Shown here piece by piece: positions 53,305 to 62,985 of a stretch of 64,000 bases of DNA; position 1 is the first letter of the stretch, and each line of letters opens with the position of its first letter. Location: NCBI GenBank assembly GCA_028868695.1, contig JAGWTZ010000007.1, positions 1-64,000 on the forward strand, in the 5' to 3' direction. This stretch comes from Alphaproteobacteria bacterium (GTDB lineage: Bacteria > Pseudomonadota > Alphaproteobacteria > Rhizobiales > Aestuariivirgaceae). The translations under genes were made by a program, and so were the position numbers. The notes under the pieces are model-generated. The model saw only the letters and a program-made list of their open reading frames with translations, was not told where the DNA came from and searched no databases.

Positions 53305-53417
53305 GAATGAGACTATAATCCGGAACATGGAACAAAGCAAGAACAATTTGATCTGGCCACAAAGGGTGAAAAATCAGGCTCTTGCGGCGCGGCGGCGGCT
53401 TCGCCATGGGTGGGGGC

Positions 53418-54287
53418 ATGAGCCCGCGCAACCTTGGTTTGGCGATTCTGGCCCCGCTGTGCTGGGGCCTCACTTTCACTTTGGCCAAGCCGGTGGTGAC
53501 GCATTTCCCGCCGCTGTTCATGATGCTGATGGTCTATGCCGGCATCGGTCTGGTGATGGCGGCCACGCACCGCACCCCTTTCAAGACCGGCTGGCCCAAG
53601 CTGCTGCTGATCTCGGCCTTATCAGTTACCATCCAGGGCGGATTGCTGTTCTATGCAGTGAAGGAGGTTGACGCCACCACCTCAAACCTCGTGCTGCAGG
53701 CGCAGGTGCCGGCAGGTGTAGTCCTCGGCTGGCTGATCGCCGGGGAGCCGCTCAACCCGTCGCGCATCGTGGGCATGCTGGTGGCGGTGCTGGGCGTGGT
53801 CATCGTCATCGGCCTGCCGGAGAAGAAGCCGCCGCTCATCCCGGTGCTCACCATCGTGCTCAGCGGCTTTGTCTGGGCGGCGGGCCAGGTTCTCGCGCGG
53901 GTGCTGTCGCAGGATTCGGGGCTCATGGTGCTCAAGGCCAATGCCTGGTTTGCAACGCCGCAGCTGGTGGTGGCCACGCTGCTTTTGGAGCAGGGGCAAT
54001 GGCAGGCGGTGATGACGGCCACGCCATTCCAATGGCTGCTGTTCGGCTTTGTCGGCGTCTTCGGCTTCTATGTGGCCTACATGACGTGGTTCACCCTGCT
54101 GAAGCGGGTGAGTGTGGACCAGGCCGTGCCCTTCATCCTGCTGATGACGCCGATTGGATTGGTGGGTGCCGTGGTGTTTCTGGGCGAGACCATTACGCCC
54201 GTTCAGCTCATCGGCGGCGCGGTGCTGATGCTGGGCCTCGCCATCGTCAATGGCGTGGGCGTGCCGAGGCGCTTCAAAACAGCCTAA
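53418..54287 (+). CDS. EamA/DMT family transporter
   Basis: GLAILAPLCWGLTFTLAKPVV; 10 TM; start uncertain (53382/53406/53418). Confidence 0.85.
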   Translation: MSPRNLGLAILAPLCWGLTFTLAKPVVTHFPPLFMMLMVYAGIGLVMAATHRTPFKTGWPKLLLISALSVTIQGGLLFYAVKEVDATTSNLVLQAQVPAGVVLGWLIAGEPLNPSRIVGMLVAVLGVVIVIGLPEKKPPLIPVLTIVLSGFVWAAGQVLARVLSQDSGLMVLKANAWFATPQLVVATLLLEQGQWQAVMTATPFQWLLFGFVGVFGFYVAYMTWFTLLKRVSVDQAVPFILLMTPIGLVGAVVFLGETITPVQLIGGAVLMLGLAIVNGVGVPRRFKTA

Positions 54288-54706
54288 TCCGCCTTCCAGA
54301 ATTCCACAGCGCCTTGCGGCAAGGTGGCCAGCACCGCATCAAGCTTCATCTCGTCAACATGCTTGCGCAAGCTGCGCGCGACATCGGCAATGGCGGTGTC
54401 GGGCGAGAAGTTGTGATCGCGGCGCAAGGCCTTCACCTCGGCGGTGAGTTCCTCGCGCGAGGCAAAGGGCAGGGGCTTTTCATCAATGGCCCACTCCTTG
54501 ACGAACAAGGCGCGCAGCACAGGCGGCAGCACATCGGCAAAGCGCAAGCCGTCACGCACAGAAAGACGGCGGCGGAAGGTGCGCAGCACCGCCTCGGTGG
54601 TGGTATAGGCCGGGTTGCGCGTGGCGAAATTGCAAGCCTCCATCACCTCGCGCAGAAAGGCATCAAACTCCTCGCCGGGGTGGCGGTATTCATAAGGGAG
54701 GGGCAT
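54284..54706 (-). CDS. DUF2267 domain protein
   Basis: MPLPYEYRHPGEEFDAFLREVMEACNFATRNPAYTTTEAVLRTFRRRLSVRDGLRFADVLPPVLRALFV; ORF upstream of 54706 only reads through the palindromic repeat. Confidence 0.8.
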   Translation of the reverse strand: MPLPYEYRHPGEEFDAFLREVMEACNFATRNPAYTTTEAVLRTFRRRLSVRDGLRFADVLPPVLRALFVKEWAIDEKPLPFASREELTAEVKALRRDHNFSPDTAIADVARSLRKHVDEMKLDAVLATLPQGAVEFWKAD

Positions 54707-54730
54707 GTGGGAAGGATAGCACAAGGCGAC

Positions 54731-54773
54731 GCATCCTTCGAGGCTTTGCTGCGCAAAGCACCTCAGGATGAGG
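54731..54773. repeat. Left inverted repeat of GIY-YIG element A
   Basis: GCATCCTTCGAGGCTTTGCTGCGCAAAGCACCTCAGGATGAGG, 41/43 to reverse complement of 55155-55197. Confidence 0.92.
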
Positions 54774-54842
54774 TGGAGCACAAAACCTCATCACGACAGG
54801 CGCACCATGTACTGCAGGCCCGGAACATGCGAGGCTCTGAAC

Positions 54843-55142
54843 ATGACGGGGGCATGGATTTACATTCTGGAATGCAGTGATGGCAGTTTCTACACCGGCC
54901 TCACGAAGCAGGAGCCAGAAGGGCGGTTGTGGGAGCACAACAACCGCATTTACAAAGATGCCTATACCTCAACACGGCTGCCTGTCAGGCTTGCTTATGC
55001 GGAGTTCCATGATTCCATCGTCAATGCCATAGAAGCCGAGCGCCGCATCAAGGGATGGAGCCGCGCCAAGAAGATCGCAATGATGAATGGAGACTGGAAG
55101 AGACTGGTTGAGCTTGCGAAGCGCAGGGGAGGAAAGACTTGA
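54843..55142 (+). CDS. GIY-YIG nuclease family protein (element A)
   Basis: 99 aa; WIYILECSDGSFYTGLT, GRLWEHN, AIEAERRIKGWSRAKK. Confidence 0.88.
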   Translation: MTGAWIYILECSDGSFYTGLTKQEPEGRLWEHNNRIYKDAYTSTRLPVRLAYAEFHDSIVNAIEAERRIKGWSRAKKIAMMNGDWKRLVELAKRRGGKT

Positions 55143-55154
55143 GTTCAAACCCCG

Positions 55155-55198
55155 CCTCATCCTGAGGCGCTTTGCGCAGCAAAGCCTCGAAGGATGAG
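55155..55198. repeat. Right inverted repeat of GIY-YIG element A
   Basis: CCTCATCCTGAGGCGCTTTGCGCAGCAAAGCCTCGAAGGATGAG, ends 3 bp from moaB stop. Confidence 0.92.
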
Positions 55199-55201
55199 CC
55201 G

Positions 55202-55732
55202 CTATTTCCTCCGCAAATGCTCATCCAGCCGCGGCATGATTTCCACGAAGTTGCAGGGCTTATGGCGGTAGTCGAGCTGCTTGGCCAGGATCTCGTCCCA
55301 GCCGTCGCGGCAGGCGCCGGGGGAACCGGGCAGGCAGAAGACATATTTGCTGTTGATCAGGCCGGCGGTGGCGCGGCTTTGCATGGTTGATGTGCCGATC
55401 TTCTGGAAGGAGATCATGTGGAACACCGTGCCGAAGCCCTCAATCTCCTTCTCGAACAGGGGCTGCAGGGCCTCGATCGTCACGTCGCGGCCGGTGAGGC
55501 CGGTGCCGCCGGTGGTGATCAGCGCATCCACGGCCTTGTCGGCCAGAAAGCCATGCGCCGCGGCGCGGATGGCCTCCACCTCATCCTTTACGATGCCACG
55601 GCCGGCAAGGCGGTGCCCTGATGCGGTGATGCGGTCGGCCAGCGTCTGGCCGGATTTGTCGTCGGCCAAGGTGCGCGTGTCCGACACGGTGATCACGGCA
55701 AGGCCCATGGGGATGAAGGCGCGCTCAGTCAT
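55202..55732 (-). CDS. moaB: Molybdenum cofactor biosynthesis protein B
   Basis: 176 aa; ITVSDTRTLADDKSGQTLADRI, LITTGGTGLTGRDVTIEAL, FCLPGSPGACRDGWDEIL. Confidence 0.9.
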   Translation of the reverse strand: MTERAFIPMGLAVITVSDTRTLADDKSGQTLADRITASGHRLAGRGIVKDEVEAIRAAAHGFLADKAVDALITTGGTGLTGRDVTIEALQPLFEKEIEGFGTVFHMISFQKIGTSTMQSRATAGLINSKYVFCLPGSPGACRDGWDEILAKQLDYRHKPCNFVEIMPRLDEHLRRK

Positions 55733-61671: not shown

Positions 61672-62480
61672 TGCAGCCGGTTGTTGAAGCCGCGCGGGCC
61701 AAGATCAACCTGGCCCTGCATGTGCTGGGCCGCCGCGCCGATGGCTATCACGAGCTCGATTCCATCGTGGCCTTCGCTGATCTCGGCGACAGGCTGACGG
61801 TGGCGCCTGCTTCCGCCAACGCGCTTTTGGTGGAAGGGCCTTTCGCCGCGGATGTTCCGGCAGACGAAGGCAATATCATCTGGAAGGCTTGGGCGCATGT
61901 GCGCGGGTTGCTGGACGTGCCTTTCGTCTCGGTTATCCTCGAGAAGAACCTGCCGGTGGCCTCGGGCATTGGCGGCGGCTCGGCCGATGCGGCAGCACTG
62001 GTCCGGGCCTTGTTGCGGCTGGCAGGCGCACGCTTGAGTGAGGCGCAGGTGGCGGGGCTCGCTGCCATCGGGGCTGATGTGCCGGTGTGTTTCGTCGGCA
62101 AGCCCTGCCGCATGGAAGGCATTGGCGAAAAGATCAGTGTCCTGAGCGAACAGCTGCCGCCGGCGCTGGTGCTGGTGAACCCGCTGGCGCCTTGCGGCAC
62201 GGCGGAGGTGTTCAAGGCCATGGGGCTGAAGCCGGGCGAGGTGCTTGCCACGCGGGCCGATTTGCGCAATGACATGACGGCCGCCGCCGTGCAGGTGCAG
62301 CCGCGCATTGCCGATGTTCTCTCGGCGCTAGAGAAAACCGCGCTGTGGCCGGTGCGCATGTCCGGCTCCGGCGCCAGCTGCTTTGGCATCGCCAACAGCC
62401 TGGAAGAGGCCGAAGCCGTGGCTGCCAAGCTTTCGGCGGCCCATCCCGCCTGGTGGGTAAAGGCCGCGCGGCTGGGTTAG
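61671..62480 (+). CDS. ispE: 4-diphosphocytidyl-2-C-methyl-D-erythritol kinase
   Basis: 269 aa; ARAKINLALHVLGRRADGYHELDSIV, NLPVASGIGGGSADAAALVRAL. Confidence 0.93.
   Translation: MQPVVEAARAKINLALHVLGRRADGYHELDSIVAFADLGDRLTVAPASANALLVEGPFAADVPADEGNIIWKAWAHVRGLLDVPFVSVILEKNLPVASGIGGGSADAAALVRALLRLAGARLSEAQVAGLAAIGADVPVCFVGKPCRMEGIGEKISVLSEQLPPALVLVNPLAPCGTAEVFKAMGLKPGEVLATRADLRNDMTAAAVQVQPRIADVLSALEKTALWPVRMSGSGASCFGIANSLEEAEAVAAKLSAAHPAWWVKAARLG
62432..62480. repeat. 49-bp direct repeat, copy 1 (ispE 3' end)
   Basis: TTCGGCGGCCCATCCCGCCTGGTGGGTAAAGGCCGCGCGGCTGGGTTAG, identical to 62937-62985. Confidence 0.97.
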
Positions 62481-62503
62481 GCGGCAGTCTGACCACCCAC
62501 AAA

Positions 62504-62537
62504 CTCCGTCACCCCTGCGAAGGCAGGGGCCCAGCTT
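62504..62537. repeat. Left inverted repeat of GIY-YIG element B
   Basis: CTCCGTCACCCCTGCGAAGGCAGGGGCCCAGCTT, exact reverse complement of 62893-62926. Confidence 0.97.
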
Positions 62538-62856
62538 GCGGTGGAACAAGCGTTGCCATAGCATCAATGTTGCCGTGCAAGTCGCGCCAATCAGGGTTCA
62601 TTTGTTCAATGATCCGGATTTTCCATTCCCGCTTCCATTTCTTCAGCTGTTTCTCGCGGCGGATTGCCGTTTCCATGGTGTGGTGATGTTCGTACCAGAC
62701 GAGCAGGTGCACATTGTGTTCAGCCGTGAAGCCTTCAAAGGTCTTGTTCTTGTGATCGCAAATCCGGTTCCACAGGGCACTTGTGACGCCAACGTAGATC
62801 GTGCCGCGATAACGGTTGGCGGTGATGTAGACAGCAGGCCACTTCTCATCATGCAT
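62509..62856 (-). CDS. GIY-YIG nuclease family protein (element B)
   Basis: 115 aa; WPAVYITANRYRGTIYVGVTSALWNRICDHKN, METAIRREKQLKKWKREWKIRIIE; C-terminus (LVPPQAGPLPSQG) encoded largely by the inverted repeat. Confidence 0.88.
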   Translation of the reverse strand: MHDEKWPAVYITANRYRGTIYVGVTSALWNRICDHKNKTFEGFTAEHNVHLLVWYEHHHTMETAIRREKQLKKWKREWKIRIIEQMNPDWRDLHGNIDAMATLVPPQAGPLPSQG

Positions 62857-62892
62857 GGAGGGACGCTATCCTCCAAATGGCCGGTGTCAAGA

Positions 62893-62926
62893 AAGCTGGG
62901 CCCCTGCCTTCGCAGGGGTGACGGAG
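62893..62926. repeat. Right inverted repeat of GIY-YIG element B
   Basis: AAGCTGGGCCCCTGCCTTCGCAGGGGTGACGGAG. Confidence 0.97.
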
Positions 62927-62936
62927 AATGTGTTGC

Positions 62937-62985
62937 TTCGGCGGCCCATCCCGCCTGGTGGGTAAAGGCCGCGCGGCTGGGTTAG
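62937..62985. repeat. 49-bp direct repeat, copy 2 (provides aroC stop codon)
   Basis: Identical to 62432-62480. Confidence 0.97.

Follow-up and report, generated by a model that had tools for sequence, protein, structure and literature searches.

The window, the whole 64,000-nucleotide stretch of alphaproteobacterial DNA analysed here, contains a small nuclease gene enclosed by two inverted repeats. To the left lie an EamA-type transporter gene (53403–54287, plus strand; named by eye from the sequence), which is the conserved left neighbour of the site that is empty in relatives, and a DUF2267 gene (54284–54706, minus strand; PF10025, E = 2.6e-25), which adjoins the cassette and is not assigned to it. 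To the right lies a moaB-like gene (55202–55732, minus strand; PF00994), the conserved right neighbour of the insertion site. The cassette itself (54726–55202, plus strand) is ~477 bp long and is composed of a TCGA-type left arm (54726–54776, minus strand), a GIY-YIG nuclease gene encoding 99 amino acids of catalytic domain only (54843–55142, plus strand), and a right arm (55152–55202, plus strand) that abuts the moaB stop codon. The two arms form an inverted pair of 51 nt, 92% complementary and 375 nt apart, with hairpin cores at 54732–54770 and 55158–55196. The preliminary description, made from the sequence alone, had given the arms as 43 nt (54731–54773 and 55155–55197), inverted with 41 of 43 positions matching, and re-reading of the sequence returned the same match. 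It had placed the right arm 3 bp from the moaB stop codon, whereas the actual gap is 4 bases (stop codon 55202–55204); the 51-nt arm extends as far as the stop. Each arm, as had been proposed, folds on itself, with DNA folding energies of −12.0 and −14.9 kcal/mol (z = −2.6 and −3.2). Both arms are members of a genome-wide REP family; that they are REPs had not been foreseen.

The 99-aa product matches the Pfam GIY-YIG family (PF01541) with an E value of 1.7e-13. Specifically, residues Y7, G19, R28, H32 and E66 are invariant across 50 homologues, Y17 is conserved in at least 90% of them, and an invariant KGWSRAKK stretch lies downstream of E66, so that the Pfam match and the conservation both agree with the earlier reading of an intact catalytic site. 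The AlphaFold model is a confident single domain (pLDDT 93.3), and a fold search with this model finds the UPF0213-type proteins 1zg2 and 1ywl as the nearest solved structures and the branched-DNA nuclease Slx1 next, more weakly; these closest solved structures have fold and catalytic residues in common with the cassette protein. The protein therefore combines the fold and the conserved Tyr, Tyr, Arg and Glu of the GIY-YIG superfamily. PADLOC returned no match to a defence function, NCBIfam gave no family, and an Rfam search gave no match above chance for a known RNA family.

To place the cassette among related genomes, we read 30 moaB loci, the host's own and those of 29 relatives, a few of which end early at contig ends. 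moaB is present in 37 of 37 genomes of the genus, and the EamA-type gene faces it in most loci read. In 17 of the 29 relatives the stop codons of the two genes overlap or are at most 6 bp apart, while the host has a gap of 914 bp containing the DUF2267 gene and the cassette. The GIY-YIG cassette is absent from the moaB locus in all 29 genus relatives examined and occurs there in the host genome only, which is the presence/absence polymorphism that the preliminary description had suggested looking for at the moaB–DUF2267 junction. Comparison of gene order across these loci indicates that the cassette is an insertion. The DUF2267 gene is also missing from the EamA–moaB junction in relatives; homologues occur in only 3 of 37 genus genomes, and the one in G028 (L181) stands without a neighbouring GIY-YIG gene. 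The gene was considered as possible cargo of the cassette, and these results leave either answer open to it. In addition, a gene-less REP pair lies between grxD and a GST gene (named by eye) in the host, and ~11 relatives have these two genes directly adjacent. At a further locus beside hslV (L120), the cassette is absent in G024 and G026, where the flanks diverge next to the junction and leave no base-exact empty site.

The arms have many counterparts in the 3.09-Mb draft host genome, as counted by an exact-pattern search of the whole genome. The pattern CTGAGGNGC-N5-34-GCCTCGAAG has 19 exact matches, and the reversed-pattern control has none. At seven host sites the REPs form gene-less inverted pairs with a short spacer between the partners; these pairs resemble REPINs, and they answer the earlier suggestion of a search for copies of the repeat without the gene. 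A cassette at one locus in all relatives with no copies elsewhere, the picture that the preliminary description had set against mobility, is thus not what the genomes hold. All 45 pairs of neighbouring REPs from a sample of relatives are inverted. Alignment of 17 distinct host copies gives a 16-bp hairpin with two 2-nt bulges, in which 97% of cells are paired and two-sided changes number 38, versus 12.7 in shuffles; pairing falls to 29–46% when the partner is slid by 1–3 columns. The outer stem occurs as CATCCT/AGGATG, CATGCT/AGCATG and CACCCT/AGGGTG, and the CTGAG and CTCGNAG side is fixed throughout the aligned family. The bulges recall the bulged hairpins of E. coli REPs, where the activity of TnpA-REP depends on the bulge (PMC8266576).

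Among the small GIY-YIG loci of the family, 73 of 108 have inverted flanks that pair with a score of 30 bits or more, versus 10% of cross-pairs; in GTDB genomes, such a pair accompanies 58 of the 80 closest relatives of the window protein. Of 87 window-clade loci, 60 have TCGA-REPs on both flanks (9/9 in the family, 51/78 in GTDB) and none has CGTC-REPs, the 'ASxxxGTLY' clade has CGTC-REPs in 35 of 67 loci and TCGA-REPs in none, and the GHVYI/GFCYI clade has the CGGGCTTGACCCG-REP in 12 of 22. Slx1-like GIY-YIG genes of the same genomes, unlike the cassette gene, are flanked by REPs in 0 of 10 cases, and the motif-scan controls give 0 of 29 at moaB and 2 of 190 at shifted positions. Within single genomes, furthermore, enzyme similarity correlates with REP arm similarity (rho 0.54, permutation p = 0.001). 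Enzyme clade is a predictor of REP type across many genomes, a relation not foreseen in the preliminary description. TCGA-type repeats also lie around relatives found in bins of Bacteroidota and Cloacimonadota, for which binning errors are possible.

Another GIY-YIG cassette, element B, lies in the window at 62432–62985. Its GIY-YIG gene (stop-to-stop ORF 62512–62865, minus strand) is accompanied by 40-bp inverted CGTC-type REPs at 62498–62537 and 62893–62932. Flanking these, at 62432–62480 and 62937–62985, the upstream gene's end (ispE, by eye) is present twice as a perfect direct repeat of 49 bp. Two other small GIY-YIG genes are located elsewhere in the host genome (L002 and L004, at G000 C84:16445 and C79:3479), one between 30-bp CGTC-type REPs and one between 15-bp inverted repeats. 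The window cassette, element B, L002 and L004 are all bracketed, and therefore all four small GIY-YIG genes of the host genome have flanking inverted repeats. The insertion and the gene-less copies support the initial view of the window cassette as a second mobile-looking GIY-YIG cassette with a repeat family of its own.

We compared 190 GIY-YIG loci, most alignments being too diverged to span the cassette. Where cassettes from different contexts do align across their length, they resemble each other as far as the outer REP ends and no further, with both ends no more than 15 bp off in 26 locus pairs. Specifically, the end offsets are −1 and 0 for L104/L105 (one genome, 84%), −1 and +17 for L118/L120 (one genome, 92%), 0 and 0 for L220/L248, and 0 and +1 for L156/L158. 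The polarity of the arms relative to the gene is not fixed, with 26 loci +−, 8 −+ and 18 in the same orientation among the 52 GTDB loci scored. A long flanking direct duplication is absent from 122 of 123 cassettes, element B being the only one that has it, while duplications of 2–8 bp would escape detection without exact empty sites. At the window cassette, the alignment-based search for degraded duplications that had been recommended found none, and the longest common outer flank is 8 bp, as expected from the earlier remark that no long flanking direct repeat is present. Target-site duplication was therefore rejected as a general cassette feature, and the window cassette does not display this hallmark of a classical DDE insertion sequence.

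We interpret the cassette as a mobile, or recently mobile, REP-flanked GIY-YIG gene whose product would be a partner dedicated to the REP type that flanks its gene, a reading to which we assign a probability of roughly two-thirds (about 0.68). It is built on the unit structure, the insertion, the clade-specific pairing of enzyme and REP, the gene-less inverted REP pairs and the purifying selection on the gene; the mobility of the unit is well supported. In the proposed mechanism, the small Slx1-like GIY-YIG enzyme would recognise the bulged REP hairpin, as single-stranded or cruciform DNA, and would nick at it. Host replication or repair would then copy or join the segment bounded by the REPs, whether it contains the gene or consists of a REP pair alone, into a new position close to the ends of genes, usually without target-site duplication. 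GIY-YIG enzymes hydrolyse DNA, and we know of no strand-joining activity among them, so the joining step would have to be the host's. This host-supplied joining is the weakest link of the mechanism.

The cassette is closest in organisation to the REPtron/RAYT systems with their REPINs (PMC2817692, PMC3116915, PMC8266576). Both have a small nuclease gene between inverted REPs, and these REPs are also found elsewhere as gene-less inverted pairs; bulged hairpins, matching of enzyme and REP, a mostly chromosomal location and low copy number are likewise common to the two. The REPtron enzyme, however, is an HUH/Y1 transposase (PF01797) and its REPs carry a GTAG tag, whereas the window enzyme is a GIY-YIG protein in a genome without Y1_Tnp, and the window REPs are of unrelated sequence, with invariant CTGAG and CTCGNAG and no GTAG. 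A REPtron enzyme is further characterised by cutting its REP as a single-stranded hairpin. Lacking both the HUH/Y1 enzyme and the GTAG tag, the cassette is not a REPtron, though it would work like one: the GIY-YIG enzyme would fill the role of RAYT/TnpA-REP with an unrelated enzyme.

A related comparison concerns the CGTC REP superfamily, which is defined by a CGTC (or TGTC/CCTC) tag, an 8–9 bp stem, a short loop and a CCA tail, is typical of alphaproteobacteria, and apparently lacked a dedicated transposase in a 2013 survey (PMC3733652). The window arms are likewise short palindromic alphaproteobacterial repeats, mostly in inverted pairs near gene ends; they differ in being 16-bp bulged hairpins of the CTGAG...CTCGAAG type with no CGTC tag. 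CGTC-type arms do occur in element B and other sister cassettes, including some in the host genome. We are evenly divided on the broader proposal that GIY-YIG nucleases power an undescribed class of mobile elements, in which each clade would recognise and spread its own REP hairpin type (TCGA, CGTC, others) in trans, in alphaproteobacteria and probably in several phyla, and which would supply the missing mobiliser of transposase-less REPs. REPs are one of the most frequent kinds of repeat in bacteria, and a GIY-YIG gene whose clade predicts the repeat offers a concrete, small and testable enzyme candidate for the CGTC REPs that have no apparent dedicated transposase (PMC3733652). It would further mean that a REP-based lifestyle, in which a nuclease is accompanied by hairpin pairs lacking the gene, evolved with a nuclease of unrelated fold as well. 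Text searches, which covered open-access papers, found none that links GIY-YIG to REPs.

Among the alternatives, the enzyme could be a host-serving nuclease that processes REPs, for example by cruciform resolution, kept by selection beside them and rarely moved by REP–REP recombination. The strong purifying selection (dN/dS 0–0.16 among related cassette genes), the low copy number, the rarity on plasmids (6 of 72,556 records) and the Slx1-like fold all accord with such a role, as do the vertically inherited, REP-free copies in Brucella relatives. In particular, the Brucella/Ochrobactrum group keeps the gene in conserved synteny without REPs (L184, L192–L194, L199), which counts against a dedicated REP partner; these homologues look as if domesticated. 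However, the presence of the gene is patchy, with just 10 of the 69 family genomes carrying a window-clade homologue (close to full length in 8), the loci differ between genomes, some cassette copies have decayed with stop codons, and, at unrelated sites, the unit stops where the outer REPs do. We consider a host-serving role unlikely.

A passenger role for the gene is, in our judgement, quite unlikely: here a different enzyme, a DDE transposase or a RAYT/Y1 protein acting in trans, would spread the REPs, with the GIY-YIG gene merely caught between two of them. REPs in other bacteria are thought to be spread by RAYTs (PMC2817692, PMC8266576), and a Y1_Tnp gene is present in 14 of 69 family genomes. 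However, the RAYT-type Y1 transposase (PF01797) has no match in the host genome and is absent from 55 of the 69 family genomes, and within the genus REP abundance does not track Y1 (p = 0.66) but tracks the GIY-YIG clade (p = 4e-4), so a RAYT is disfavoured as mobiliser. Every one of the 10 family genomes that carry the window clade contains at least 18 of these REPs. Of the 59 genomes without it, 46 have no such REPs and 8 have at least 5; these 8 count against the main reading, and loss of the clade member or incomplete assembly is possible in them. The co-occurrence, which favours the main reading, gives a Fisher p of 1e-7 family-wide, a value inflated by shared ancestry; host phylogeny confounds the relation in part. 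Within the genus the figures are 6/6 versus 6/31 genomes. A match between clade and REP type would not be expected of a passenger, and the 122 of 123 cassettes lacking a long duplication argue against DDE transposition.

Free-standing homing endonuclease genes encode a GIY-YIG catalytic domain, a classic fold of such enzymes, and show presence/absence polymorphism. Like them, the window cassette has the GIY-YIG domain and is present or absent at one site among relatives; the gene would cut one allele and be copied in by homologous repair, the REPs being incidental. However, the model contains no separate DNA-binding domain, and homing on one conserved homologous target site does not fit related cassettes that lie at many unrelated sites with no flanking sequence in common. 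The REPs, furthermore, are clade-specific and mark the unit ends, and we regard homing as very improbable. Hardly credible at all is the proposal that REPs pile up in intergenic hot spots and bracket any small dispensable gene there, which would suit the junctions described below and is contradicted by the near-empty moaB, shifted-position and Slx1-like controls and by the clade-specific repeat types.

The EamA–moaB and grxD–GST junctions hold other repeat types in several other genomes (L027, L043, L292, L294, L297), which suggests shared, repeatedly used hot spots at gene ends. For the REP-flanked GIY-YIG unit as a mobile element, rarity on plasmids together with the several family copies inherited at one locus (L054–L056) points to low mobility. 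Two relatives (at L054 and L055) have direct copies of a ~106–117-bp REP pair on either side of the GIY-YIG gene in place of single inverted REPs.
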